NCBI GenBank assembly: GCA_028689025.1 | Contig: JAQTXA010000005.1 | Span: forward strand, 100,955 to 164,954 | From: Aliarcobacter sp. | Lineage (GTDB): Bacteria; Campylobacterota; Campylobacteria; Campylobacterales; Arcobacteraceae | Direction: 5' to 3' | Length of the DNA: 64,000 bases | Part shown: in pieces, positions 20,441 to 55,036 of the stretch | Position numbering within the stretch: the first letter of the stretch is position 1 | How the letters are laid out: each line of letters begins with the position of its first letter | Made by a program: the position numbers and the translations under genes | The notes under the pieces: model-generated | Databases searched by the model: none | What the model was told of the DNA's origin: nothing | Seen by the model: the letters and a program-made list of their open reading frames with translations, nothing else

Positions 20441-20944
20441 ATGAGTAATTTACCACAAACAATGAGAGATATAAATATCTTTATTGATGGAATAGGACAT
20501 CTAGGTACAAGTGAAGAATTTGAATTACCAAAGATAAATCAAAAGAAGTTTTCACAGGAATTTGGTGGGTTTGAAAGAGAAGTTTTAACTGGTTCTTTTG
20601 AAAAGATGGAAGCAAATGTTACTTTAAATGAATATTCAGCAGCTGTTTTTACTGCAATGGCATTAGGTAATGTTACAGGCTTAGGAGTAAATTTAACTGT
20701 AAAAGGTTCTATTTTCCAAGATGGAAAAAGTAAACAGGCATTAGCAACTATTCAAGGGAACATAGATATTGATGACGGTTCTTGGAAAGCAAACGAGCAA
20801 GTAAAAAGAAAATTAAAAATTTCTGTAAATATGTATGCAATGGAAATAGATGGTAAACAAGCATGCCTATTTGATGTAAACCACATGATAGCAATTATTG
20901 ACGGTGTTGATTTTTTAGCAACACTTAGAAGCCATATACAATAA
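20441..20944 (+). CDS. Major tail tube protein (outer phage)
   Basis: 167 aa; homologous to inner 48618..49124. Confidence 0.88.
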   Translation: MSNLPQTMRDINIFIDGIGHLGTSEEFELPKINQKKFSQEFGGFEREVLTGSFEKMEANVTLNEYSAAVFTAMALGNVTGLGVNLTVKGSIFQDGKSKQALATIQGNIDIDDGSWKANEQVKRKLKISVNMYAMEIDGKQACLFDVNHMIAIIDGVDFLATLRSHIQ

Positions 20945-20948
20945 AAAG

Positions 20949-20953
20949 GTAAA
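20949..20953. repeat. Target site duplication GTAAA (left copy)
   Basis: GTAAA abuts 5'-TGTAAGGGGG; identical GTAAA at 54820-54824 after ...TTTTACA-3'. Confidence 0.88.
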
Positions 20954-23277: not shown

Positions 23278-23290
23278 AGGAGCGTTGCCC

Positions 23291-25360
23291 ATGTATGTAG
23301 AAACGAAAATCGCATCGGTAGTGTATGGAGTAACTGAGAGGGCTTTGCAAAATGCCGTCAAAAGAGACTCCGACAAATACAACTATCGCTACATCGACGG
23401 TGTGGGCAGAGGCGGCAAAAAACTACTTATTAAAGTTGACGAGGTCGAGCTTGCAGTCGCAATCGACAAAGGCGAACTTGAGGAGTCAATCACTATTTAT
23501 GAAGAGCTGCCCGAGGGCGGTCTTGGAGAGGTAGCTTGGAATGACTTTAACGGCGAACCAAAAGAGATAAGCGTCAAGGAAGAGCCGGAGATAAAAACGG
23601 CAAAACCTAAAGCAGACAAAGAGGTCAAATACTTTGAGCTTGACGAAGAGCAAAAGCGAGAGGCTACTGAGCGTCTGCGAATACTCAAAGACTGGGATGA
23701 GTACAGAAAAGAGGGAGTGGCGACCTCGAAATTTTGCGATAACAAAAACCGCTTCGATCCTACACTAAAGCTAAGCGAGCAAAAGCTGTATCGCTGGCAG
23801 AGAGACTATAAAGAAAAAGGGATTGTCGGCTTGGCTGATATGAGAGGCAAGGCAAGAGCGGGTAAGACAACGCTCAAGCCTTGGATGCAAGACTTTGTGT
23901 TAGCACAATTCAGAGCCTTTGGAGCCGGAGGTATCAACTATCTCCAGTTATGGGATGCGTTGCATGAGGAGGCAGCTCGCAAAGGCGAGTGCGATTATAT
24001 CAAGTTCATCAAAAAAGAGCAAAAGCCTCTTTGCGACTACGGCACCATCAAACGCTTTATTGACAACTACTATAAAAACAATCGGCTTGAGTATGTGATG
24101 GTCACGCTGGGCGAAGACAAAGCGAAAAGCTACTTGCAACCTGCAATGGGCAATCAAAAAGAGCTCATCATCAGACGCAATCAGTGCTGGCAAGTTGACT
24201 CATCGCCTCTTGACGCAATGGTACGAGATGGAGATAACGGGACTGCCTTTAGACCAAACATCCTCTCAATCGTGGATGTGTTCAGCGGTCGAAGCGTGAT
24301 GAGCTTAGAGCGAACATCAAACGCTCTCTCACTTGTCCGCTTGCTATGGAAAGCGTTGGAGAAATTTGGAAAGCCTGAGTACATCAAAGGTGACAACGGA
24401 AAAGACTATCTATCCAAACAGTTTCAAGAGCTGCTGAGCGGTCTTGGTATCGACTACGACAGAGCGATTGCTTATGCCGGTGATGAGAAAGGATTTGTTG
24501 AGAGACACTTCCGAACGGTTCAGCATAGCGGTATCAGCTTTACACCAGGATACATCGGAAACAGCTTGGCAAAGCGTGAGATGATAGAGCAGAGAACGCC
24601 AAAGCGAGACCGAAAAGCAAAAGACCAATTTGGGAATGTGAAAAAGACAAACCAGCTGCACCTTTTGACATTCGAGCAAATGAAGATGAGGCTTGACACT
24701 GAGGTTGCCAAATGGGACATCATGCGTATCAGACGCAAAAATGAGTCTCCGATGGATAGATGGAACTCGGACGATACGGCAATCAGAAAAGTCGCTTACG
24801 AAGAGTTCATCTTGTATGCGGGTAGAGCCGACATCAGAACGGTCGCTAAAAAAGGTATCGAATACGAAGCGTTGCGCTTTGTTGGAGACTCACTGCCTCC
24901 GGTCGGTACCAAAGTGGTATGCAGAGCAAACATCGACAACGCTCAAGAGATATTTGTTTTCTCGCTCACTGGAGATTTTATCTGCCGAGCCTACGACAAA
25001 GAGATTGCTCTTATGTCAGCAGAGCAGTACAAGGCGGTCAAAAAGGTTTTCAAAGAGGAGATGCGTCAAGTCAGAGGCGTTATCAAATCAGCGGAGTTCA
25101 GTGCATTTACACGGCTTGCAATCGAGGAGGACTTCGAGCGTATGCTGGAGGAGCACAAAGAGTCGCTTAAACCTCAGAAAATAGAAGCGGTCAATAGTGA
25201 TGTCGTCGCAGATGTCAGAGAGAAGCTTCGAGAGCAAAGAGAGGTTGACAGCATAAAAGAGCGTGTCTTTGACATAGACTCAATGATGATGCCAAACAGC
25301 GAAAAGCGAAACAAGCTGAGCTGGGACAGCGTCATCGAGCGAGCGGTCAATTGGAGTTGA
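23291..25360 (+). CDS. Mu-type transposase A (DDE integrase)
   Basis: about 690 aa; 'RRNQCWQVDSSPLDAMV...NILSIVDVFSGRSVMSL...IKGDNGKDYLSKQFQELLSGLGID'; ATG 23291 (TTG 23285 also possible). Confidence 0.95.
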   Translation: MYVETKIASVVYGVTERALQNAVKRDSDKYNYRYIDGVGRGGKKLLIKVDEVELAVAIDKGELEESITIYEELPEGGLGEVAWNDFNGEPKEISVKEEPEIKTAKPKADKEVKYFELDEEQKREATERLRILKDWDEYRKEGVATSKFCDNKNRFDPTLKLSEQKLYRWQRDYKEKGIVGLADMRGKARAGKTTLKPWMQDFVLAQFRAFGAGGINYLQLWDALHEEAARKGECDYIKFIKKEQKPLCDYGTIKRFIDNYYKNNRLEYVMVTLGEDKAKSYLQPAMGNQKELIIRRNQCWQVDSSPLDAMVRDGDNGTAFRPNILSIVDVFSGRSVMSLERTSNALSLVRLLWKALEKFGKPEYIKGDNGKDYLSKQFQELLSGLGIDYDRAIAYAGDEKGFVERHFRTVQHSGISFTPGYIGNSLAKREMIEQRTPKRDRKAKDQFGNVKKTNQLHLLTFEQMKMRLDTEVAKWDIMRIRRKNESPMDRWNSDDTAIRKVAYEEFILYAGRADIRTVAKKGIEYEALRFVGDSLPPVGTKVVCRANIDNAQEIFVFSLTGDFICRAYDKEIALMSAEQYKAVKKVFKEEMRQVRGVIKSAEFSAFTRLAIEEDFERMLEEHKESLKPQKIEAVNSDVVADVREKLREQREVDSIKERVFDIDSMMMPNSEKRNKLSWDSVIERAVNWS

Positions 25361-25418
25361 ATTAACAGACTCTCCCATGGGAGGGTCGCTTAATCCAACA
25401 ATAAAAAGGAGAAAGATT

Positions 25419-26357
25419 ATGGATTTACAAAGTCAGATTTTGGAGTTTTTAGAAGCTCAGGGGATTAGTCAAAATAGGTTCGCAAAGACAATCGGAGTTA
25501 ATCCGGCTTATTTGAGTGGGTATATGCAGCAAGGAGATGATTACCAGTACAAAGATAAAGTCATCGCCCCTGCTAAAACATACATCGCAAATTATATCGA
25601 AAAGACAAGTAAAAGAAAAGAGGCAGAGCTTGAATTTGTGATGACAAGAGACGCAAAAAGCGTCTTTGCGGTTATCGAATGGGCGGTGATGGATGAGGAT
25701 ATGGCGGTCATCGTAGGTAAAGCCGGAACGGGCAAGAGTCGAACGCTCAGGGAGTTTGCAAAAAATCATCCTGAGTCCATCTTGATTGAAGCAACCATCA
25801 GCACCACGGCAAGAGACCTTTTCAAAAAGATTGCTGAGCTGCTTGGCTCTCAATACAAAGGAAGCCTCGACCTAACGGTGCGAGAGTGCGCTTCGATACT
25901 TCAAAAAAGCGAGAAGTTTATCATCATCGATGAGGCAGAGCACTTGCCTTATCGGGCTTTGGAGCTGCTTCGACGGATGTATGACTTCTCAAAGAGTCCT
26001 TTGATACTTGCCGGAACCAAAAAGCTCATCAAAAACCTCACCGGTGGCGAGAGTGATTATGACGAATATGAGCAGCTCAGCTCAAGAGTCGGTGGCAAGT
26101 GGATACTTCAAGGGCTCACTTATGCCAAAGAGAGCGAGGGCAAAGTCGTTGAGATAGACGATGACCTCAAGGCGGTCTGCAAGCTCTTTGGAATAAACGA
26201 CATTGCGACAGCGAAAACAATCAAACAGTTCACAAAAGGGAACTTCAGAAAAACAGAAAAGCTGCTCAAGCGTTCTGAGAGACTGGCAAAAAGCTACGGC
26301 ACGGAGATCACAAAAGATGTTATCGAGACTGCGGTCGAGATGTTACTGCTGAGATAG
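25419..26357 (+). CDS. MuB-like AAA ATPase target activator
   Basis: Walker A 'VGKAGTGKSRTL', 'IIIDEAEHL', N-terminal HTH; SD AAGGAG before ATG 25419. Confidence 0.92.
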   Translation: MDLQSQILEFLEAQGISQNRFAKTIGVNPAYLSGYMQQGDDYQYKDKVIAPAKTYIANYIEKTSKRKEAELEFVMTRDAKSVFAVIEWAVMDEDMAVIVGKAGTGKSRTLREFAKNHPESILIEATISTTARDLFKKIAELLGSQYKGSLDLTVRECASILQKSEKFIIIDEAEHLPYRALELLRRMYDFSKSPLILAGTKKLIKNLTGGESDYDEYEQLSSRVGGKWILQGLTYAKESEGKVVEIDDDLKAVCKLFGINDIATAKTIKQFTKGNFRKTEKLLKRSERLAKSYGTEITKDVIETAVEMLLLR

Positions 26358-30439: not shown

Positions 30440-30718
30440 ATGGTTACAACCGTGGAGCTATTTGAAGAGTTTTTTAATAAAATCAAAGAGTGCGACTCTA
30501 TAACCGACATTTACAAAGAGTTTGGTGGCAGTTCTATTTATGTGCCTTCTTATAAGTCCGTATGCAGAAACGAAGAGATATTGAACGAATACGAAGCCAT
30601 GAGCAAAGACGGAAGGTCGGGCTCAGGTATCATCCGAAAGCTTGCCTCAAAATATGACTTGTCTGTCTCTCAAATATACGCTATTACAAAAGACATCAGA
30701 GAGCCTTCACTTTTTTAA
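30440..30718 (+). CDS. Mor-family transcription activator
   Basis: 92 aa; 'FGGSSIYVPS...GSGIIRKLASKYDLSVSQIYAITKDIRE'. Confidence 0.8.
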   Translation: MVTTVELFEEFFNKIKECDSITDIYKEFGGSSIYVPSYKSVCRNEEILNEYEAMSKDGRSGSGIIRKLASKYDLSVSQIYAITKDIREPSLF

Positions 30719-31384
30719 TAGGCTCTGAGCGTCCGCTTTTGCTTTTTCAGTCTTTACGCTTTGCTGGGCTGATAACTCACTTAACTTCTTATCATACGAT
30801 TTTCCTGCGTTATAATTCCAACCATCATCCGCAAATCCTACCTTAGCCACATCCGGCGTTACTCCAAACTTTTTGGCTTTGCTCTCTGTTATGGCATACG
30901 CCTGACAGCGACAGTTGAACCCGTTTGGAGGATAAAAACTATCCCAAAACTTATCATCTATCGGCAAAACCTTACCGTGCATCATTGCGTGTGATGGACG
31001 AGTGTGATTGTCTAAAATCGCAGAGTACCTCAAATAAGGAAAGTCCTCTTTCGTCTCTTGCATTTGCTTCCATGATCCGATTGATTTTGCTTGGTGCATA
31101 TTGGTCTGATAAACTGTCTTGACCCTAAAATCGCTCCAGCCCTTTTGCTTCCAAAGCTCCTTTGTCTGCTTTTTCCATTCCGCAAACCCCTGACCCTCTT
31201 CCAATGCCTTTTTGATAGAACCAAACACAAACTCAAGCTCTGAGCTCTTGGTGAGTTCGCTGACTGTAAAAGCGAAGACCTTTGCGTCTTGCTCAAGAGC
31301 TGCAAACTCTTCGGGTGACAAGAGCAGCTTTTTTACAAAGTATTCAATCGCCTCATCGGGAGTGATTTTGCCAAAGTTAATCAT
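30707..31384 (-). CDS. Mu gpF-like head morphogenesis protein
   Basis: 225 aa; 'SAILDNHTRPSHAMMHGKVLPIDDKFWDSFYPPNGFNCRC'. Confidence 0.92.
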   Translation of the reverse strand: MINFGKITPDEAIEYFVKKLLLSPEEFAALEQDAKVFAFTVSELTKSSELEFVFGSIKKALEEGQGFAEWKKQTKELWKQKGWSDFRVKTVYQTNMHQAKSIGSWKQMQETKEDFPYLRYSAILDNHTRPSHAMMHGKVLPIDDKFWDSFYPPNGFNCRCQAYAITESKAKKFGVTPDVAKVGFADDGWNYNAGKSYDKKLSELSAQQSVKTEKAKADAQSLLKK

Positions 31385-32762
31385 CTTTGCTCATCCCATA
31401 AAGCTCAGAGATAAGGATTGCTTGCTCTATGGTCTTTTGATCCACATTCTCAAGTGAGTCCAGCGCATCAAGCAAATCCTCAAAGCTCTCCGACTTATCA
31501 AGCAGCTCGATAAAGTTTGATTTGCTCAAGCTTGCATTTTCGAGAAACGATGAGACGAGTTCGTCAAATAGTATGGCTCTTGCCGCTGCTTTCTGCTCGT
31601 CTGTATCTGTTTTATTCGCTATTAAATGGGCTTTAAACGGTGTTTTATTTGCCGTTACCGTTTCTTGTTGCTGCATCTCTTCGACCGTGATATTGTAGGT
31701 CGCTTCGATGTATTCTTTTGTTGGTCGGTATCCCATGTCGTAGATTGTTTTGTCTCTCGTTGCGAGCTCGGTGCGTGGATCATCCTCATCTTTGAGCATC
31801 ACATACATTTCGTCAGTGATACCGTTGACCTCTTTGAAATAGCCTATTGCACGATTTAAGACATGCTCAAGTATCTTTCGGTCTGCATTTGCCAAATCCT
31901 CTCTGATTTCGTTGTGAACCTGAGTTGCTGCCAAAGAGCCTGAGCTGACATTGCCGGTTAGATTGCCTCCAAGTATCGCACGATTGATTTGAGAGTCGCA
32001 GTAATCAATGAGCTTGTCAAAGTCGCCTTTGTTGGAGCTTGGATGGATGAGCTCTATTTTCTCATCAGGGTCAATAACTGCCGTGTCCCCGCTGAGCATT
32101 GCGTTAATCTCATTTGCCAACTCATCTGCATCAGAGTCGGTCTTACCAATCGCCCACGGGCTTCCAAACTTCTCAAGGAACCTAACCCAAAACTCCATTG
32201 AAGCATTTTTGAGTTTAACTGGAAAATAAATCTTTGCAATCGTTCCATCACCATAGGGCTTATTAAACCGTTTGCGGTATGTAGCGGTGATTATTTTGTA
32301 TTCAGGTATATCATAGAGCGTGCCTTGGTTTCTCCACTTCAAAACGCCCTCGCTGTCATATACAAAGGTGCGATAATCTCTTTGGATGAGTTCCGGCAAG
32401 TAAAGTCCGTCTTTGAGTTTCCAGTTGATTTCAAAAACATTGAAGCCGTACATGTAAGTGTCGAGAATTTGAGAGATGACATCCGGGGTGAATGCCTCCT
32501 CAAGAGCTGCAATGTGCTTGTCGTTTTTGCTGACAATCTGAAGCTCTTTTTTTTCGGTGACGCTCTTTCGGCTTTCGTCTGCTTGAGAGACACTCAAATC
32601 CCTGATAATTTTATCCATCTGCTCATCGCTCAGCCCTCCGATTATAGACGAAGTGTCAATCGAAAAAAGCTGCTCAACAAGACTATTATTTGAACTTACA
32701 AGTCTGCTTTTTTTGTTTGCATCGACTTTATTTGAGAAAAATCCCTTAAACATCTTAATCAT
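31377..32762 (-). CDS. Mu gp29-like portal (DUF935)
   Basis: 461 aa; 'DEQMDKIIRDLSVSQADESRKSVTEKKELQI', 'RFLEKFGSPWAIGK'. Confidence 0.92.
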   Translation of the reverse strand: MIKMFKGFFSNKVDANKKSRLVSSNNSLVEQLFSIDTSSIIGGLSDEQMDKIIRDLSVSQADESRKSVTEKKELQIVSKNDKHIAALEEAFTPDVISQILDTYMYGFNVFEINWKLKDGLYLPELIQRDYRTFVYDSEGVLKWRNQGTLYDIPEYKIITATYRKRFNKPYGDGTIAKIYFPVKLKNASMEFWVRFLEKFGSPWAIGKTDSDADELANEINAMLSGDTAVIDPDEKIELIHPSSNKGDFDKLIDYCDSQINRAILGGNLTGNVSSGSLAATQVHNEIREDLANADRKILEHVLNRAIGYFKEVNGITDEMYVMLKDEDDPRTELATRDKTIYDMGYRPTKEYIEATYNITVEEMQQQETVTANKTPFKAHLIANKTDTDEQKAAARAILFDELVSSFLENASLSKSNFIELLDKSESFEDLLDALDSLENVDQKTIEQAILISELYGMSKDD

Positions 32763-34446
32763 CCATCACTCCTGGTCGTTTTCTAATTATGCGGTTTGTC
32801 CGTTTTTTCTTTTTATTCTTGCTCTTTTCGAGCTTGCTGAGCTTATAGGCTCCATGTAAACTATCGGGTGCGTCATCGTGCTCTCCTTCAGGAAACTCCT
32901 CAAGCTGCTCAATGAGAAGCGTGTGGCTCTTATGGAACATAATCTCTCCGTTTTCAATCGGAAGCTCAAGCTCTTCAATCCTCGCCTCTTTGTTTTGATA
33001 GTTATCCATCCCTCTGAGCGGTAAGTGTACTCCGGCATCAAATGCCGCCTCAAGCATCCAGCCCTTGAGGAAAAATTGACCGCCGTTTGTCTCAACGCCG
33101 ATAATCTTGCAGCGGTAGAGCTGCTGAAGCTTGATGACGGTGTTGATGATTTCTCTTGCTGGCATAACTTTGACTTTGCTCTCAAGAACATAGCCTTTGC
33201 GTTCACTGTCTTTTATTCCAAGGACAGTGATTGCCGTGTAGTCGCTTTTCTTTTTCTCTCCAGCTGGGTCAACCCACATAACATGGCGGTCGCATTTTGG
33301 AGCAGTGAGGTAAAAGTGCATATTCTCTTTTTTGAACTTTTGAGCCTCACTGAGAGGATTATTCATCTGCTCTTTGTTGAAAGCTTTGGGGTTTTCTGCT
33401 CTGATTTGCATGAGTTTATTGATCGGGAGAGCTTCTTTCCAAAGAACCTCTGCACCCTCGTCCATTTCGGTTTTATGCTTGAGATAGAAAGCCTCTGCCT
33501 CATGCGTCCCCATGTTTTTGTAAAGAAAGCCATATCTATCCCATAAGTCCATGCGCTTTGGAAAAGTGATAACGGACTGAAACTTTTTAGGGTTCCAAAA
33601 CTGGAGCTTGAGCTTTCGTGCGAGTACGCTGTCTCGGTGTAGAATGGTTCCGATGTAAAGAATATCCATCGACCTATCGGCTGAGCCTAAGTTCAAGACT
33701 GCTTCGTCTAGCCACTCTTCAAGCTTATCTCTTTGCGGTTTGCTTCTTACATTCGTGTCGTTCTCAAGGTCGTCAAGGATTGTGAGGTCGGGTCGATATA
33801 CGCCGAACTTTACACCCCTTAGTCTTTTGCCGCTACCAAACGCTTTGAACTTAACACCGTTGCGAGTGACAAACTCTCCAACTTTCCAGCTGGTACCGAC
33901 ACCGCAGACATCAGGAAAGTCAGCTTTGAGGTTTTCATTGTCCTCAAGCTCGACCTTGATTGCCTCAAGGTTTCCCTCGACCAGTTCGACTGCGTCTGAT
34001 ATTTCGACAATAAAGCGTTTCTTTTTGTATGTCGCACACCATAGTGGGAAGAGCTGCGAAACATAAGTAGTCTTTGCATGTCCCCTTGGTGCAGCTATGG
34101 CGTTCTTGGTTCCCTCAAGCGTTGTCGTAATCTCGACAAACTTTTCCTCAAGGTATTCGTGAAGAGCATTTTTGCCAGGTATGCTGAAATAATGTGGGAA
34201 GTATGTTCTTGACCAAAACTCAAAGTCATGCTCACCTCTTGCAACACGCTCGTCTCTCGTTTTCGGGTCAAGGGTGGCGTTGCATAGGATTTGAGCTCTC
34301 AGCTCCTCTTTGAGGTCATCCAACCAATCAACAAAATCTTTGCGTGTTAGCTTTCGGATAGTCTTCTCATCCTTGCCATCAAGCTCATAGCTGAGTCGTG
34401 TCTCCTCTAAGAACGAGTCCAGCTCTTCTTTACTAAACAACATCAA
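32755..34446 (-). CDS. Mu gp28-like terminase large subunit
   Basis: 563 aa; 'AIAAPRGHAKTTYVSQLFPLW', 'MWVDPAGEKKKSDYTAITVLG'. Confidence 0.9.
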   Translation of the reverse strand: MMLFSKEELDSFLEETRLSYELDGKDEKTIRKLTRKDFVDWLDDLKEELRAQILCNATLDPKTRDERVARGEHDFEFWSRTYFPHYFSIPGKNALHEYLEEKFVEITTTLEGTKNAIAAPRGHAKTTYVSQLFPLWCATYKKKRFIVEISDAVELVEGNLEAIKVELEDNENLKADFPDVCGVGTSWKVGEFVTRNGVKFKAFGSGKRLRGVKFGVYRPDLTILDDLENDTNVRSKPQRDKLEEWLDEAVLNLGSADRSMDILYIGTILHRDSVLARKLKLQFWNPKKFQSVITFPKRMDLWDRYGFLYKNMGTHEAEAFYLKHKTEMDEGAEVLWKEALPINKLMQIRAENPKAFNKEQMNNPLSEAQKFKKENMHFYLTAPKCDRHVMWVDPAGEKKKSDYTAITVLGIKDSERKGYVLESKVKVMPAREIINTVIKLQQLYRCKIIGVETNGGQFFLKGWMLEAAFDAGVHLPLRGMDNYQNKEARIEELELPIENGEIMFHKSHTLLIEQLEEFPEGEHDDAPDSLHGAYKLSKLEKSKNKKKKRTNRIIRKRPGVMDD

Positions 34447-34921
34447 TCGTTCCTAAGCTGTCGGTAAATTCTTTGCTGCCAAGCATGTCAACCATCTTCT
34501 CAATGCACTTTTTGTCGCCGGTATTTTTAAACTCTCCGACGATCAGCTGCACAACTCTTTTTGCGATTGCGAGTTTATAGCTCTCAGGGTCTTCAAAACT
34601 TGCCACTTTTTTCATTTTGGCAAATGAGTCTCCGAGCTGAGAGAGTGCTGATGCTTTCTCGTTTGCTTTTAGACTGGACTCATTTATCTCTTTGACTGCG
34701 AGATACATTTGCTCGATGAAGTTTTGATAAATCACAACTTTGTCATCGCCACGCTTATTCAGATAACCGGCAGCTCTGAGCTCATCCCAATCACCGTCTT
34801 GGCTTTTGTAGTTTTTGATAGTCTTTGCATTCTTTGACAATATCTGAGCGATTTTGTCGATGTCAAAGCCTTTTAAGTAAAGCTCTTTTGCGAGCTCTTT
34901 TGTATTAGTTGTTGGTGCCAA
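34433..34921 (-). CDS. Mu gp27-like small terminase subunit (DUF1804-like)
   Basis: 162 aa; 'AKELYLKGFDIDKIAQILSKNAKTIKNYKSQDGDWDELR'. Confidence 0.8.
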   Translation of the reverse strand: MAPTTNTKELAKELYLKGFDIDKIAQILSKNAKTIKNYKSQDGDWDELRAAGYLNKRGDDKVVIYQNFIEQMYLAVKEINESSLKANEKASALSQLGDSFAKMKKVASFEDPESYKLAIAKRVVQLIVGEFKNTGDKKCIEKMVDMLGSKEFTDSLGTIDVV

Positions 34922-35336
34922 AATGTTTCCTTAGTTGATTTGTTAGAATTTCGGTGATTTCATCATAGTCGTCTTTGTTGATGCCTAAAAACGCTCTTGC
35001 TGGCATCTTCTTTGTGCCGAACTGATGGAAGACTCCGTAATTGACTGATGCACCTATCTTGACAAATCCTTTACCCGTGATATATGTCACCCTTTTTAGC
35101 TGACCGCTGTTATGCAGTATTTTTCTGCCTTGAGTCTTCTTTGTCTCTACCTTTCGACGCTTCCATTTGTTGCCGTCGGGGTCAACCTCATTCTCAAACC
35201 GTTCTATCGTTTGACCGACAACTGCTTGACCTATACTCTTGAGAGCTCTTGTAAGTGGAGCATCGCCAAAGCGTCCGAGCATTTCAAGACTGGCATTGAG
35301 TTCATCGAGTCCGCTTACTTTTACTTCGAGCGTCAT
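34905..35336 (-). CDS. Phage virion morphogenesis protein (gpG-like)
   Basis: 143 aa; 'VNYGVFHQFGTKKMPARAFLGIN'. Confidence 0.88.
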   Translation of the reverse strand: MTLEVKVSGLDELNASLEMLGRFGDAPLTRALKSIGQAVVGQTIERFENEVDPDGNKWKRRKVETKKTQGRKILHNSGQLKRVTYITGKGFVKIGASVNYGVFHQFGTKKMPARAFLGINKDDYDEITEILTNQLRKHFGTNN

Positions 35337-35347
35337 TTAAACACCTT

Positions 35348-35743
35348 TTAAAGACCAGTTAAATCCAAACGCTGGCTATTGTGGACAAAGCTGCGTTTCT
35401 TTTGCACCGGACTCTTTGCACCGCTTGTTGTTACCTCTGTCGGTATTTTCTTTGCCGCCATTTTAAGAAGGAGCGACTCGCACTTCTCTTGAACCTCTTT
35501 GACTGCCTCTTTCGGAAAGCCGTTGCGCTTTTTTAGCTCAATTACTGTCAGGTCAACGGCGATGTCTTTGAGTAGAGGCGACGGGTTTGAAGGTATAGTG
35601 ATAAAAGAGCTAATAAAAGAGATAGTGTCTTGCATACAGTCGTCAATGATGTTTTGGTCAATATCGCCAGTCGCATTAACATCGCTAAGCTGTAAAAGCT
35701 CTTTTTGAGATACCTCTTTTAGTAGGTCTTCGTTAGTTATCAT
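35348..35743 (-). CDS. Mu gp36-like protein (DUF1320)
   Basis: 131 aa; position and 'DCMQDTISFISSFITIP'. Confidence 0.65.
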   Translation of the reverse strand: MITNEDLLKEVSQKELLQLSDVNATGDIDQNIIDDCMQDTISFISSFITIPSNPSPLLKDIAVDLTVIELKKRNGFPKEAVKEVQEKCESLLLKMAAKKIPTEVTTSGAKSPVQKKRSFVHNSQRLDLTGL

Positions 35744-35838
35744 CTTAGTCCTTTGTGTAGTACCGTTTAAATGCCGTTTAAAATCGCCGTAAATCGTTTA
35801 AAATCTTTTTTTGGTATCTTTTACCGTCTTAGATAAGA

Positions 35839-35859
35839 AAAGGGCTTTTAAGCCCCTTT
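35839..35859 (-). terminator. Hairpin, possible terminator downstream of capsid gene
   Basis: AAAGGGCTTTTAAGCCCCTTT. Confidence 0.55.
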
Positions 35860-35868
35860 CTGTTCGTT

Positions 35869-36849
35869 TTATGCAGTTTGATACTTCAACTTGATTAAAG
35901 CACCCGGTCTGACACATACCGGAATAGGTCTTGTTTCACTCACGACAGAGTATCCACGACCTTTTGGCAGCTCTTCAGGCGTAGCTGTAAAGAATAGCAC
36001 TGGAGCTTTATTCAATGCTTGAGTGTGATTTGCTCGTCCGTAGAAGAGTTTGTAAACATCAGCACTGTCAGGCGTTACGATTGCTTCATTTTCGGCAATA
36101 AAGCTTTTTGTAGCACCGTTTGCATTTTTGTACTTCGCAGTGTAAGGGATGAACTTTTTGCCATGCACCTCAAGGATTCGTTTTTCGCCCTCACTGATCC
36201 ACTTAGCTTGACCTTGAGTAAATAGCTCTTCAGTTGTAGCTCTTGCAGCAACCCCGCTGATAAACGAACGACTTGCAAGGATTGTATAACCAACCTCGGT
36301 GCCAAGCTCTTCAACCAAAGCGTCATCGATTTCGTTTAGACTTTGGATAATCGGTTTTGCATTTGTGAATGTTTTTTGAGCAGCTCCGCTTGAGAACTCA
36401 AATAGCACATTGCCTTTTCCGTCCATTACTTTTCCAAAAAGCGCACCGACAGACATAAACTCGATAGTTGTCATAAAAGAGTCTTTATGCTCTTTGACGA
36501 GTTCTCCGATTTTTTGAGAGAGAGCTTGAGCTTGATCGTTCGCTCCTTCAAGTGCTTTGATTTCGTTCATATCGCTTGCACTGATAACAGACTCAAGCGG
36601 GAAACGAGGCAGCGTGACAGTCAGCATATAAGTATCGCCCTCATCATGGATCAAGTGTTCCGCATTTGGTGATACGCTCTCAAGAACGATACCGGCACCC
36701 TTTTTGATTGGAATGTTTACGCTTGTCCCCATAACGCCTTTTTGAGATTTTGCAAAGTATGTGTCAAATGCAAAACTCGGTGCAACTTTAATTTGGTTGA
36801 TGATTGCAATCATTGATTGCAGTGTGAAAAGTTTAAGAATATCTTTCAT
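35869..36849 (-). CDS. Major capsid protein E-like
   Basis: 326 aa; 'VAPSFAFDTYFAKSQKGVMGTSVNIPIKKGAGIVLESVSPNA', 'RPIPVCVRPGALIKLKYQTA'. Confidence 0.85.
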   Translation of the reverse strand: MKDILKLFTLQSMIAIINQIKVAPSFAFDTYFAKSQKGVMGTSVNIPIKKGAGIVLESVSPNAEHLIHDEGDTYMLTVTLPRFPLESVISASDMNEIKALEGANDQAQALSQKIGELVKEHKDSFMTTIEFMSVGALFGKVMDGKGNVLFEFSSGAAQKTFTNAKPIIQSLNEIDDALVEELGTEVGYTILASRSFISGVAARATTEELFTQGQAKWISEGEKRILEVHGKKFIPYTAKYKNANGATKSFIAENEAIVTPDSADVYKLFYGRANHTQALNKAPVLFFTATPEELPKGRGYSVVSETRPIPVCVRPGALIKLKYQTA

Positions 36850-36859
36850 AGTGCCTTCC

Positions 36860-37294
36860 TTATTTCAAGATGATTTTGTTGCCGAAAAGAGTTGCTCTTA
36901 GAGCCTCTTCAAAGCCGCTTAGATTGTGCTCAACCACAACACCGCTTACCAGTACATTTGCAGTGCTTGTCGTTTCGATGTAATCGCAAAGCACCCCGTT
37001 TGCGTTCCATGCGCCTTTGTCTTCCCATTTTACTGGGTCGCTTCCAGGTACTGCGGTGTTTGCGTCTGCAAGACTTTCCCAAATATGTCCGAGATGATAA
37101 ACCTCTTCAGCCGTATCGTATGAACCAGCTGCATAAGCAGGTGTTGTTTGAGTAGTGAAAGTTACTCCTCCATCGTTACTTGATAGAAGTGTTCCGATGT
37201 CAAGCGTTGCGTCTTCCGGTACTGTTACCGTTGCGTTTACACTTAAAGCCTTTGTGACAACCACATCGCTGTGTTTTAATCCCATTTTTTCCAT
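36860..37294 (-). CDS. Head decoration protein
   Basis: 144 aa between capsid and protease. Confidence 0.65.
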   Translation of the reverse strand: MEKMGLKHSDVVVTKALSVNATVTVPEDATLDIGTLLSSNDGGVTFTTQTTPAYAAGSYDTAEEVYHLGHIWESLADANTAVPGSDPVKWEDKGAWNANGVLCDYIETTSTANVLVSGVVVEHNLSGFEEALRATLFGNKIILK

Positions 37295-37305
37295 GAGGTC
37301 TCCTT

Positions 37306-38163
37306 TTATTTAGTATTGCCGGTTGCAAGTGCTACGACATCAATGCCATCACCTTGACCGCTTTTGTTTGCAAACATATTGCTTCCCGGTAAATCTTTTT
37401 GCTCTTTTTGAAATGACAAAAATTGCGTAAAGCCTTCAGGGTCTTGCTTGCAGTATTTAACTGCCCATGCTTTTTGATCTGCCGTGATTTTGTTTGCGGC
37501 GATTGCTGCTTCAACTTTGGTCTCTGCTAACTGCTCTTTGAGCTTTTCGTTTTCAGTTGCAAGGTCTGCATCTGTTCCGGTTTGGCTCGCAGCGTCTCCA
37601 TCTTTTTCATCAGGTTTTTTCTGATCTTCGGCGTTTGCTGGATTTTTATCTTTATCCATGTTTTTCTCCTTTTGGGTATTTTTGTTGGCGTGAACTTCTC
37701 CTAATTCATCGAGAAACGGCGTGTTTGTCAATGCTACGGAATGCAGTTTGATTCCAATATAGGCATTTGTTTTGTTGTCAAAACTATCAAAAACATAGAC
37801 TGGCGAGACATACTTGTACTCTCCGTTTTTGATGTACTCGGCGGCTTTTTCCGTCCAGGTGATTTTTGCGAGCAGTTTGTCACCTTCAATCATCAGCTCG
37901 CTAATCCATCCCGCAGCGGGTGCCTCAGTTCCGTATAGTGTTTGGTGTTCGTAATCGATGACGATTTCTGTCTTTTGTTTGTCGAAGTTCTCCTTTATGG
38001 TTTTTAGGTCTTCAGCCGTGATTTTAAACGAACCCGACGGATGACCGTGCCACTCCCCTACAACTCCTACAACTATTACAACTTCACTCTCTGAACCCGT
38101 ACTCTTTGGGCTTTCCTTGAGAGGGAAGATTGTATTTGAATACAAAGTATTTTTCATTCTCAC
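37306..38163 (-). CDS. Mu gpI-like prohead protease/scaffold
   Basis: 285 aa; 'EIVIDYEHQTLYGTEAPAAGWISEL', 'SPVYVFD'. Confidence 0.88.
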   Translation of the reverse strand: MRMKNTLYSNTIFPLKESPKSTGSESEVVIVVGVVGEWHGHPSGSFKITAEDLKTIKENFDKQKTEIVIDYEHQTLYGTEAPAAGWISELMIEGDKLLAKITWTEKAAEYIKNGEYKYVSPVYVFDSFDNKTNAYIGIKLHSVALTNTPFLDELGEVHANKNTQKEKNMDKDKNPANAEDQKKPDEKDGDAASQTGTDADLATENEKLKEQLAETKVEAAIAANKITADQKAWAVKYCKQDPEGFTQFLSFQKEQKDLPGSNMFANKSGQGDGIDVVALATGNTK

Positions 38164-38612
38164 TCCTCTTCTAAAATTTCAACTTCATCCTCAAATAACA
38201 CGGCAGAGAAGTTTCTGACATAAACAGTCAAATAACCTTGATTGGTTACCCCGTCAAAAATCTTCTTTGCAGCAATGAGTTTGATGCTTCCGCTATTGCT
38301 AAAACTTCTATCAATAAGGCTTTTGTCAACCTTTTCCATAAAATCTATGAGCTCATGTCTGCTTGCCTCCCTGTATTTTTCTGCCTTGCTCGCCGTTGAA
38401 CCGACAATATAAAGGTTCCATCGACACTCTTTTTTGTAAGTGTCAATGACCTCGTCACCGTCATAATCAATGAAAATGACCGGAGCGGATTTAATACAAC
38501 TCTCAAGACGCTCAGGGTCGTCGAACTCTCCGAGATAAGCTCTTACAGATTCGGGCGACTCAGTGAGCGTTTGTAGATGTTGTTTGAGCTCGTTTTCAAA
38601 TACTGCAACCAT
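38160..38612 (-). CDS. Mu gp37-like (DUF1834)
   Basis: 150 aa; 'FIDYDGDEVIDTYKKECRWNLYIVGS'. Confidence 0.7.
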   Translation of the reverse strand: MVAVFENELKQHLQTLTESPESVRAYLGEFDDPERLESCIKSAPVIFIDYDGDEVIDTYKKECRWNLYIVGSTASKAEKYREASRHELIDFMEKVDKSLIDRSFSNSGSIKLIAAKKIFDGVTNQGYLTVYVRNFSAVLFEDEVEILEEE

Positions 38613-42216: not shown

Positions 42217-42758
42217 CCGCTGTACCAACCAATCAGGGTATCGGCATATTAAACACTGAGCTGAGAAATCAGGTCACTAAGTTCGTACTCATTGGTGCAA
42301 CTAATTACACGAACGCAACGCTTGACGCAATCTTAACCGACACCGAGGTCGTGACTTATGCCGACATTCAGGGATATGTTTTTTATCACGGTGTTGTTGA
42401 GACTGCATATTTTGATGATGAGGGCGTGCTTACTTTTGAGCTGCTTTTGCCACTCGAGGAGGACTTGCAAAAATATACTTTTGCGGTAGGTCTTGTCTCG
42501 ACTGACAATCAGCTGGTAAGTATCACGCCGACTCCAAAGATAGTGCTTATCTCAGGTGTCGGCGGCACATTTGTCGTCAAGGTGGCGGTAAAGGGCAGTC
42601 CTGGCGTGATTGTCTTTAAAAATAGTGAGTATGTGACACCGGCTGAGCTCTTGAACCATAAACAAAATGTTTTAAGACCAGTCGTAGCAAATGCAACAAA
42701 CTATTTTGATTTGACAAATAAACTAATTGATAAAGGAGTAATCGATGTTAACAACTGA
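42204..42758 (+). CDS. Tail fibre protein N-terminal part (inner phage)
   Basis: 184 aa; 'VPTNQGIGILNTELRNQVTKFVLIGATN'. Confidence 0.72.
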   Translation: MANLTAVPTNQGIGILNTELRNQVTKFVLIGATNYTNATLDAILTDTEVVTYADIQGYVFYHGVVETAYFDDEGVLTFELLLPLEEDLQKYTFAVGLVSTDNQLVSITPTPKIVLISGVGGTFVVKVAVKGSPGVIVFKNSEYVTPAELLNHKQNVLRPVVANATNYFDLTNKLIDKGVIDVNN

Positions 42759-44706
42759 GGAGTTGAATTTAGCAATTGAAGAGTTGCTAAATAAAGCAAG
42801 AGAGGTTTTCAATAAATACGACGGAGCTTTCGCTGCAATCGGAAGTCAATCAGGTGCGGCAGTGCAAGGATTGAACGCTTTGCATTATGAGCTTATGTCT
42901 GAACTGCAAGAGTTGGCAAATGGTGTCGGTCTTGAGCATGAGTGGGACGGTACATCTGTGCGTTTCAAACAAAACGACGGCACTTGGGGTCAATGGGTAA
43001 ATCTTCAAGCTCCATCGGGCTTTGATTATGAGGATGCTGCAAATCCTGGCATTAATGTCAATCCTACTGTCTTGAATGCAAAATGGCTCAATATCACTAC
43101 AGCTGAGCTTTTTGTTTGCTCAGATAATACACCAGGTGCGAACATGTGGACTGGGAGCAATGGCACGACTATTCAGCCGAACCAACTGCCGACAAATCCG
43201 ACAAATACATTTCCGGCGACGCTTTACAATAACCAAACATACAATCACACCTTTGCGGGTGCTACTGATGCAGACGGCACCGTAACGCATTACATTGTGG
43301 ATCAAATCTCAAGCGCACATTTGAGTGTTGCAACTTTTGAGGTTGCCGCTGGCTCTGCTCATGTGTTTACGGTCGGAAGCGTGACAACGGATGAGACTGT
43401 AACCTTCAGGGTTCGTGCAAAAGACAATTATGGCTCTTATAGCTCAGGTATCACAGTAACGGCTCAACTGAAGCTCTCAAGCATTGGGGTACCTGGAGGA
43501 GTTGGATTTGGTGTCGGTGTTGCACCTGATACGCTTGTCACTTCTTTTGGCTTGACTCCGATGACCGGATACAATGACCCGGCACACGCAAACTTTGGAA
43601 ACTATACTGATGCTTCAGGCTCGGTGATGGTTTATATTCCTAAGCACTATGTGAAGCTTTCGCTCAACACGGCTGCACCTTACAACGGCTTGCAAGTTGA
43701 CATCAGCGGCTCTGCTCAAGCTGGGTACGGCTTGCCGAGATGTTTTGTCAATAACGGTGTAGAGGTTGCCGGTATTTTTGTTGATAAGTACCTTGGTGGT
43801 AAAGAGGGAACGGTGATGGTTTCTAAGCGAAACCTTGATCCAGTCAGTACGGCAGCAGCTCACAATCCTATTACAACACTGACTGCAAACTCTCAATCAC
43901 CGGCAGCGACTTATGAGGGTATGTATGCAGCAGTTAAAACGAGAGGAGCTAACTACTCGCTCACGACCATTTTTACTTATACGATGCTGGCAAACCTTGC
44001 CGATGCTCATTATCAAGCGTGCTATCGCAACAATAACTTTGCTCCGTGTGCATGGGCTGACATTGCACCTTATCAGCCGAAAGGGTGTAACAACAATGCT
44101 CTCAAGGATGTCAATGATGCGAATGTCGTTTATACGACTTCTCCATACAGTACATGCGGTCTGACTGGAGGCGTAACAGATACGGTATTTGCAAAAATTG
44201 CTCATAACGGTCAAAAGTGCGGTGTTGTTGACTTAAACGGAAACATGTGGGAGGTTGCAGCCGGTTACATTACAAGTGCCGCTGGAGCTCACTTGGTGCT
44301 TAAAGAGAGCATTGATGTCAAAAACCTAACTGCGGCGGTAGCCTACACAACAACCAATTATGATGCACTCACTATGCCTCTGACTCTGAGCAATACTCAA
44401 GTCGCTTTTGGCAACGGAACAAATCAGTTTTTTAGCGGTGATACCGTCCGAACTAACAACGCTTATCATCTTGATAATCTTGGCTTGCCTCTCAACGATA
44501 GTGCGGTCGGTGCAAGTGGTACGGATAGATTTGGTGGTGATGGTTTTTGGCGATACCAGGTGAACGAAATGTGTCCGATTGTCGGCGGCTATTGGGGCGA
44601 TTCCGGTCTGTCCGGCGTGCGGACTCGGAATTTGTCTTCTGTTCGCTCGAGCTCGGACGTCCATGTTGGCGGGCGTGCCTGTTTGGTGCCTTCTGTAGCA
44701 GGGTGA
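42745..44706 (+). CDS. DGR variable protein 2 (tail fibre with C-type lectin-like C-terminus)
   Basis: 653 aa; 'GVVDLNGNMWEV', C-terminal 'CPIVGGYWGDSGLSGVRTRNLSSVRSSSDVHVGGRAC' = VR2. Confidence 0.92.
   Translation: MLTTEELNLAIEELLNKAREVFNKYDGAFAAIGSQSGAAVQGLNALHYELMSELQELANGVGLEHEWDGTSVRFKQNDGTWGQWVNLQAPSGFDYEDAANPGINVNPTVLNAKWLNITTAELFVCSDNTPGANMWTGSNGTTIQPNQLPTNPTNTFPATLYNNQTYNHTFAGATDADGTVTHYIVDQISSAHLSVATFEVAAGSAHVFTVGSVTTDETVTFRVRAKDNYGSYSSGITVTAQLKLSSIGVPGGVGFGVGVAPDTLVTSFGLTPMTGYNDPAHANFGNYTDASGSVMVYIPKHYVKLSLNTAAPYNGLQVDISGSAQAGYGLPRCFVNNGVEVAGIFVDKYLGGKEGTVMVSKRNLDPVSTAAAHNPITTLTANSQSPAATYEGMYAAVKTRGANYSLTTIFTYTMLANLADAHYQACYRNNNFAPCAWADIAPYQPKGCNNNALKDVNDANVVYTTSPYSTCGLTGGVTDTVFAKIAHNGQKCGVVDLNGNMWEVAAGYITSAAGAHLVLKESIDVKNLTAAVAYTTTNYDALTMPLTLSNTQVAFGNGTNQFFSGDTVRTNNAYHLDNLGLPLNDSAVGASGTDRFGGDGFWRYQVNEMCPIVGGYWGDSGLSGVRTRNLSSVRSSSDVHVGGRACLVPSVAG
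44570..44681 (+). repeat. DGR2 variable repeat (VR2)
   Basis: 112 bp matching TR2 (45167-45278), 14 mismatches all at TR adenines. Confidence 0.95.
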
Positions 44707-44715
44707 GAACCCTGC
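44698..44715 (+). promoter_or_regulatory. Hairpin/cruciform downstream of VR2 (candidate DGR target-recognition element)
   Basis: GCAGGG-TGAGAA-CCCTGC overlapping the VP2 stop codon; absent after TR2. Confidence 0.65.
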
Positions 44716-44737
44716 GAATCCTAAATAAAGGAGAGCC

Positions 44738-45139
44738 ATGACAGTTGATGCGGAGACTGCATTTGTCAGAAAATACATTGATTTTCTCAAGCAGTTAAAT
44801 CTCTATCTCAATCACTTTCCAAGGCATGAGAAATATGCTTTGTGTCAGTCAATCAGGCAAGACGCTTACAATGTCTTTGACTTGATGGTTGAGGGTCAAA
44901 AGAGATATTACAAAAAGACCTCTTTGTCAAATATGGATGTTCAATTTGAGCAGCTCAAGGCAAAGATTTTGTTGGCTTATCATCTCGGTTACTTTGAGTT
45001 CAAAGACGGGAAGACGGATGAAAAAAATCCAACGACCATGAGCGAAAAGCGTTTTGCCGTTCTTTCAAGAATGGCTGATGAGCTCGGGCGCATGATCGGA
45101 GGATGGATTAAAAAGGTCAAAGAAGAAAATCAATGGTAA
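44738..45139 (+). CDS. DGR accessory variability determinant (Avd-like)
   Basis: 133 aa; 'YLNHFPRHEKYALCQSIRQDAYNVFDLMVEGQKRYYKKTSLSNMDVQFEQLKAKILLAYHLGY'. Confidence 0.88.
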   Translation: MTVDAETAFVRKYIDFLKQLNLYLNHFPRHEKYALCQSIRQDAYNVFDLMVEGQKRYYKKTSLSNMDVQFEQLKAKILLAYHLGYFEFKDGKTDEKNPTTMSEKRFAVLSRMADELGRMIGGWIKKVKEENQW

Positions 45140-45166
45140 CACCATCAGGCACCATACGATTATGTT

Positions 45167-45278
45167 TGTGTCCGATTGTCGGCGGCAATTGGAACAATTC
45201 CGGTCTGTCCGGCGTGCGGACTCGGAATTTGAATAATGTTCGCTCGAACTCGAACAACAATGTTGGCGGGCGTGACTG
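45167..45278 (+). repeat. DGR2 template repeat (TR2)
   Basis: Copy of VR2 with adenines at every mismatch position. Confidence 0.95.
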
Positions 45279-45393
45279 CAAATCCTCGTATTTCAAAAAG
45301 TGGATCGACAGGGATATGGTGTCTGGCTTTTTAGCGAAATATACTAAGACCTCGATTGTGGTAGGCACAGCCGAAGCTCTAAAGGGATTACAT

Positions 45394-46389
45394 TTGAAGC
45401 GTTATGGAAATTTATACGAAGAGGTCATAAGCAGTGAGAATATGTTTAATGCCTTTCGAGACTCAAAGAACAATAAGCGAAACAAAAAGACCGTTTACCA
45501 GTTTGAGCTCAACTTTGGAAAAGAGATGGGCGACTTAATCCTTGAGTTAAGACAAGGCACTTATGAGCCGAAACCGTACAACAAATTTATAGTTTATGAA
45601 CCAAAAAAGAGAGAGATATTTGCTCCGGCGTTTAGAGATATTGTTGTGCAGCATGCTTTGTATAGAGTGGTTTATCCTATCTTTGAAAAGGGTTTTATCA
45701 CACAATCACATGGATGCAGAAAACATCACGGATGTCAAAGTGCGAGTGAGTATTTGCAAACGGTGATGAGAGACTCTGACCCGGAGAGCTACTTTCTCCA
45801 GCTGGACATTAGAAAGTATTTTTACTCGTTTGACAGAGCAGCTTTAAAAGGCATGCTTGAGAGAAAAATCAAAGACAAGGCGGTCATTGATCTGCTGATG
45901 CAATTTACCAAATATGACTCTGACAAGGGCGTGCCTATTGGAAACTTGCTGTCTCAGCTTTATGGCTTGATTTACCTTAACCCTCTCGACCATTTTGTGA
46001 AGAGAGAACTCAAGGTTAAAAATTATGTCAGATATGTTGATGATTTTGTCCTGGTCGGTTTGACGCTTGAGCAGTCAAAAGAGTATCTGTCCCGGATTAC
46101 GGATTTTCTAAAAAGTGAGCTTGGTCTTGAGCTATCAAAAGCAACAAGAGCCAAAATCAAACGGGGCATTAACTTCGTAGGGTATCGCACTTGGCAATCT
46201 CATAGGCTTGTCAGAAAGTATGCGATGCACAAATTTAGAAGAGCGTGCAAAAAAGAAAAAGTGGAGTCTATTGCGAGCATGCTTGGTCATGCGAAAAACA
46301 CGCAAACAATTCCCTATTACAAAAGAATCTTGGAGGAGTGCGACATGGTTCAAAAGTTACCCACAAAAATTCAAAGGAGTCTGACATGA
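45394..46389 (+). CDS. DGR reverse transcriptase 2
   Basis: 'GVPIGNLLSQLYGLIYLNPLDHFV', 'YVRYVDDFVLV'; likely TTG start 45394 after AAAGGGA ('LKRYGNLYEEVISSENMFNAF'); ORF track start 45133 runs through TR2. Confidence 0.92.
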   Translation: MKRYGNLYEEVISSENMFNAFRDSKNNKRNKKTVYQFELNFGKEMGDLILELRQGTYEPKPYNKFIVYEPKKREIFAPAFRDIVVQHALYRVVYPIFEKGFITQSHGCRKHHGCQSASEYLQTVMRDSDPESYFLQLDIRKYFYSFDRAALKGMLERKIKDKAVIDLLMQFTKYDSDKGVPIGNLLSQLYGLIYLNPLDHFVKRELKVKNYVRYVDDFVLVGLTLEQSKEYLSRITDFLKSELGLELSKATRAKIKRGINFVGYRTWQSHRLVRKYAMHKFRRACKKEKVESIASMLGHAKNTQTIPYYKRILEECDMVQKLPTKIQRSLT

Positions 46390-54819: not shown

Positions 54820-54824
54820 GTAAA
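54820..54824. repeat. Target site duplication GTAAA (right copy)
   Basis: Identical to 20949-20953. Confidence 0.88.
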
Positions 54825-54826
54825 AG

Positions 54827-55036
54827 ATGAAAGATATAACATTAGCAAATGGTAAAACTGTACAAATGAGAGAACCAAAGGTAAGAGATATGAGAATATC
54901 TCAAGAGGCAAAAACTGATGCAGAACAAGAAATTAAATTAATTGGTAATTTAACAAATATGACAATGGATGAAATTGATGAGTTATCTTTAAAAGATTAC
55001 ACTTCATTGCAAACGGCGTTAAAAAGTTTTTTGTAA
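54827..55036 (+). CDS. Tail assembly chaperone E (outer phage), separated from its ribosome-binding site by the Mu-like insertion
   Basis: 69 aa; homologous to 49135..49344. Confidence 0.82.
   Translation: MKDITLANGKTVQMREPKVRDMRISQEAKTDAEQEIKLIGNLTNMTMDEIDELSLKDYTSLQTALKSFL

Follow-up and report, generated by a model that had tools for sequence, protein, structure and literature searches.

Between positions 42745 and 46389 of the window (the whole 64,000-nt stretch of Aliarcobacter sp. DNA that was analyzed) lies the second complete DGR, DGR2, that had been proposed for this locus. A TR/VR pair, a reverse transcriptase (RT), Avd, an IMH, a hairpin, a lectin-type target, and VR diversity were all found. 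The order of the parts is VP2, VR2, hairpin, Avd, TR2, spacer, and RT.

Target gene, hairpin, Avd, and RT

The VP2 gene (42745 to 44706, plus strand) encodes a variable tail protein of 653 amino acids (aa). Its reading frame was as originally predicted, and its identity as a tail protein is supported by its fold and by its location after J-like and gpI-like baseplate genes, the usual position of a tail-fiber gene. Profile and fold comparisons assign residues ~249 to 653 to a C-type-lectin domain of the FGE subtype. The profile of this domain matched TaqVP (PDB 5vf4; E = 3.9e-7), and an AF2 model of the C-terminal 405 residues (pLDDT 94.4; 63 sequences) gave TaqVP as the best Foldseek match (6e-17), followed by Mtd (9e-5) and formylglycine-generating enzymes; the full-length model, made from ten sequences, had a pLDDT of 40.7. 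VR2 is at the C terminus of VP2, within the part modeled as a lectin fold. From this fold (TaqVP, then Mtd) and the place of the gene after the gpI-like gene, we infer that VP2 binds a receptor, which agrees with the prediction that VR2 targets a receptor-binding tip. Relatives of VP2 occur on at least 364 viral contigs, and of 79 loci examined from among the best, 52 have an adjacent TR/VR pair. The C-terminal domain (from residue 260) also has relatives, 31 to 32% identical and annotated as hypothetical, in Campylobacter phages (for example, CP220 and CPt10; records H32 to H46).

A DNA hairpin or cruciform, GCAGGGT-GAGA-ACCCTGC (44698 to 44715), which was absent from the original description, is predicted from sequence, conservation, and DNA folding (z = -3.6). 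It has a 7-bp stem, lies 16 nt past VR2, and overlaps the VP2 stop codon. Close relatives share an invariant stem, and their loops (GAGA, GACA, and GATA) differ solely in the N of GRNA. Published phage DGR hairpins have GC-rich stems of 7 to 10 bp and GRNA loops and lie 4 to 34 bp after the VR (PMC3240598); the hairpin described here agrees with them in stem, loop, and distance. The gene at 44738 to 45139 (plus strand) encodes a 133-aa protein of the bAvd family (PF22296, 2.9e-17, above the cut-off; phrog_3206, 9.4e-21), as expected from its earlier description as Avd-like.

The RT has the IGNLLSQ and YVDD motifs that had been noted and matches phrog_1423 at 1e-103, but its open reading frame, which begins at 45133, probably does not mark the start of the protein. 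The most likely start is the TTG at 45394, which gives an RT of 331 aa (45394 to 46389, plus strand; identified by phmmer and homologue starts) and a 115-nt spacer behind TR2. We put the start there because homologues in Bise, BalMu-1, L010, and a Helicobacter ganmani prophage have an ATG at that codon, before the same KR motif. A non-DGR RT (of a group II intron, retron, or defense system) that merely happened to lie beside a repeat would also have the Pfam RVT_1 domain, which all of these classes share, but we consider this highly improbable. The nearest solved structure is that of the RT 8ub7 (phmmer, 7.8e-57), a match that surpasses those to group II intron RTs by over 30 orders of magnitude; in addition, the IGNLLSQ motif is present, Avd and a TR are neighbors, and the protein is placed among the known phage DGR RTs that made up the taxa of our tree.

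The spacer (45279 to 45393, plus strand) is probably a noncoding part of the DGR RNA. Its divergence was equal over codon positions (7/39 versus 13/76; P = 1.0), and that of the RT was unequal (P = 2e-17). When folded as a single sequence, the spacer RNA was no more stable than shuffled sequences (z = 0.74), and the window gave no Rfam match and no tRNA. The RT frame is open through TR2, back to an ATG that overlaps the avd stop codon; ACA1 and the closest relatives likewise have this frame open, and three indels relative to L005 are all multiples of three. The stops found in L007, L009, and Bise, the aperiodic spacer, and the homologues' ATG at 45394 speak against reading the TR as translated N-terminal RT sequence. 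The open frame is thus probably incidental, though it may be translated.

The carrier prophage

DGR2 is carried by a transposable (Mu-like) prophage of 33,866 bp, prophage B (20954 to 54819), which lies inside a second prophage, prophage A; the nested Mu-like carrier that had been predicted is therefore present. Prophage B has the ends TGTAA...TTACA, plus an in-register inverted TGAAATGATAGT 14 bp inward, and is flanked by copies of the target-site duplication GTAAA at 20949 to 20953 (left) and 54820 to 54824 (right). It encodes a MuA-type transposase A (23285 to 25360, plus strand; Pfam rve and Mu-transpos_C) and a MuB-type transposition protein B (25377 to 26357, plus strand; phrog_296, 1.1e-69). 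The annotated head and packaging genes (portal, terminase, and major head protein; 30707 to 38612) are on the minus strand, and the tail genes are on the plus strand. We found 5-bp duplications at three different insertion sites: GTAAA in the window; GTATA in genome G151, where a related phage (L050), ~75% identical, has the same termini; and GGTGC in the Sulfurimonas genome G150. The presence of phages of this type in different genomes and at different insertion sites amounts to movement between genomes and sites.

The G+C content is 43% in prophage B and 29% in the DNA around it, both prophage A and host. Prophage B has the tail-tube-type gene of prophage A on one side and the tape-measure gene on the other, with its left junction at 20944 to 20953 and its right junction, at 54820 to 54830, just ahead of a prophage A gene that starts at 54828. 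The insertion parts this gene from the tube-type gene and probably breaks the tail operon of prophage A. Upstream of prophage A we noted by eye an integrase-like ORF (G000:C6:92906-94048; L044), and prophage A may integrate by site-specific recombination and not by transposition. The target gene of DGR1, the other DGR of the window, has a second, inverted copy upstream of the window (G000:C6:98361-98473; L044; minus strand; 93% identical over 377 bp). This copy has a VR of its own with 15 mismatches to TR1, all 15 at A. DGR1 may serve two oppositely oriented tail genes, an arrangement that recalls the invertible fiber segment of Mu.

Diversity of VR2

VR2, the variable repeat (44570 to 44681, plus strand), and TR2, the template repeat (45167 to 45278, plus strand), were located exactly where they had been predicted and align over 112 bp without gaps. 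All 14 mismatches fall on the 23 adenines of TR2 (6 A>G, 4 A>T, and 4 A>C); the chance that 14 random mismatches would all do so is 3.4e-12. The original prediction had counted all 14 alike, but one of them, A45275 in TR2 versus C44678 in VR2, recurs as the identical A/C difference in L004 to L007, L009, L010, L014, L050, and DGR1. Because mutagenesis would not yield the same base every time, we read it as a fixed IMH*/IMH mark, which puts the number of mutagenic differences at 13. It lies in the IMH-like 3' end of VR2 (GTTGGCGGGCGTGCCTG; 44665 to 44681, plus strand, the left boundary being approximate), where GCCTG in VR2 versus GACTG in TR2 is constant among relatives.

A scan of the whole window in all strand combinations, with A as a wildcard, gave just two pairs, VR2/TR2 and that of DGR1, and no additional VR for TR2 was found in the window's own genome. 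TR2 has codon periodicity in the VP frame (P = 0.006), and none of its adenine-containing codons in that frame can mutate to a stop codon; the 12 variable codons (excluding the IMH codon) allow ~10^13 possible proteins. Seven phages taken together have 91 VR/TR mismatches, 88 at A and 3 elsewhere, and two of the compared VRs differ from their own TRs at one or two non-A sites as well. At a non-adenine site, 44667/45264, both repeats have T in the window and both have G in L004, and L003 has G in its VR and T in its TR. This pattern suggests that a non-A marker was passed from TR to VR in the lineage of the window.

Two near-identical copies of the phage were available for comparison, L003, a viral contig (98.7% identical), and L049, from Sulfurimonas sp. 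RIFOXYD12 (98.6% over 15 kb). Between the window and L003, VR2 differs at 17 of the 23 TR-adenine sites and at 1 of 86 non-A VR sites; over all sites other than the VR adenines there were 41 differences in 4,405 (Fisher's test, P = 7e-29). Between the window and L049 the values are 17/23 for the A sites and 1/89 for the other VR sites (P = 2e-28), and L049 and L003 differ from each other at 18/23. In TR2 the window differs from L003 at a single site and from L049 at 0 of 112. There are thus three VR alleles in three phages with one shared backbone. In viral contigs the A-masked TR pattern matched only L003 and L043, the latter being the same contig as L004. The comparison with Mu-like relatives that the original prediction had called for therefore revealed A-biased VR2 diversity (17/23 A sites versus ~1% elsewhere) beside a constant TR2. 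Because copies that differ by ~1% elsewhere differ at 17 to 18 of 23 VR adenine sites, these sequences indicate that diversification of VR2 is recent relative to point mutation. The VR differences could predate the lysogeny of the compared copies.

That DGR2 is a decayed element, with old VR differences in a dead cassette, might be suspected from its location in a prophage that sits within another prophage. We judge this unlikely, since the RT, Avd, VP2, the hairpin, and the TR are each intact and under constraint and the VR adenine sites have diverged as described in copies ~1% apart. It is also conceivable that VR2 and TR2 are a duplicated fragment shaped by diversifying selection or ordinary recombination, with no retrohoming: the tips of tail proteins are commonly variable, and differences cluster elsewhere in the phage, suggesting recombination. 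Neither process, however, would confine changes to the A sites of a repeat ~500 bp away and leave the other VR sites at 1/86 and 1/89, and we give this explanation almost no weight. The reading we favor, with a probability of roughly 0.93, is that of a complete, recently active BPP-1-type DGR inside a Mu-like transposable prophage.

The cDNA mechanism, receptor binding, and present-day activity of DGR2 are presumed. An avd-TR-spacer-RT transcript would be copied into cDNA by an RT-Avd complex (by homology), with random bases entering opposite the TR adenines. With the IMH and the hairpin shortly after it as anchors, the cDNA would then take the place of VR2 in the 3'-terminal part of VP2. On the C-terminal lectin domain of VP2, the 12 variable codons would form an exposed binding surface, through which the phage could change its receptor specificity, and the phage would spread by transposition with 5-bp duplications.

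Known systems and two host families

DGR2 resembles the BPP-1 DGR (mtd-avd-TR-brt) in gene order, in Avd, in IMH/IMH*, in its C-type-lectin target, and in the GRNA-loop hairpin that overlaps the stop codon of the target; the two RTs are 36% identical. It differs in its spacer (115 nt versus 144 nt in BPP-1) and in its transposable carrier, and VP2 has an N-terminal region that Mtd lacks and a lectin domain nearer that of TaqVP. TaqVP, the variable protein of a DGR in a Thermus aquaticus prophage (PMC6328139), is the protein that the C-terminal domain of VP2 matches best in both profile and fold, but identity in the structural alignment is low (16 to 18%). Pseudomonas phage Bise, from a different host, has a DGR with a target, a TR/VR pair, a four-helix-bundle Avd, and an RT 52% identical to that of DGR2; in contrast to DGR2, the frame that leads from its TR to its RT is not open. 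Bacillus phage BalMu-1, named as Mu-like and also from a different host, has a DGR with a target, a TR/VR pair, and an RT that is 38% identical. The hankyphage, a transposable phage of Bacteroides with an active DGR (PMC12135933, PMC6199706), shares with DGR2 a tail-fiber target, diverse VRs with an identical TR, several host species, and a transposable carrier. It is a different phage in a different host phylum, and the near-identical copies of the DGR2 phage span two families. DGRs on transposable phages are thus already known (hankyphage, PMC12135933; BalMu-1), and DGR2 is ordinary in kind. Support for it is unusually good, and its notable part is the cross-family pair of phages with a turned-over VR2.

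In the Sulfurimonas genome G150, a phage copy 97 to 99% identical to prophage B interrupts a ferritin gene. The compared portion, ~17.5 kb in total, comprises a right part of ~15 kb (98.6% identical) and a left part of 2.5 kb (97.0%). The phage ends, with the same termini as prophage B, are on separate contigs, one of 246 kb and one of 375 kb. Because both ends are bordered by GGTGC, and because the flanks, when joined, make one ferritin-like reading frame, incorrect binning is an unlikely source of this insertion. The host genomes compared are at least partly MAGs. As to the hosts, the family of the window's genome includes G037, which has a contig identical to one from an Arcobacteraceae MAG, ychF on the window's own contig is 95 to 99% identical to that of several species of the same Arcobacteraceae genus, glmU on the phage-bearing G150 contig reaches 81% identity with that of Sulfurimonas members, and the RpoB proteins of the window's genome (G000) and G150 are 69.5% identical. 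Arcobacteraceae and Sulfurimonadaceae, both Campylobacterales, are separate families in the NCBI taxonomy. These markers and the taxonomy therefore place a near-identical phage in two families. A 16S search gave no match in any of the three genomes, and a search of the window's genome for the flank of the Sulfurimonas ferritin site gave no match, a result that is uninformative alone.

A survey that used CRISPR spacers found a statistical association of DGR phages with wider host diversity (PMC8144416). The phage described here is a concrete case: one transposable phage with a near-identical backbone (97 to 99% over ~17.5 kb), two host families, and several VR alleles, in which no other sites have diverged nearly as much as the TR-adenine sites of VR2. 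It is possible, but to our minds doubtful, that rewriting of the VP2 tip by the DGR let the phage cross between Arcobacteraceae and Sulfurimonadaceae. Turnover of VR2 is no proof that it caused a host jump, because L003, a viral contig with no host assigned, shows equal turnover. The natural VR2 alleles make it testable whether hypermutation of a tail tip opens new hosts. Our literature search, which covered open-licence papers, found no paper devoted mainly to Sulfurimonas or Campylobacterota DGR phages. Among other Campylobacterota-related DGR loci, L019 (in G051) and L017 (in G140) each have two VRs for a single TR.
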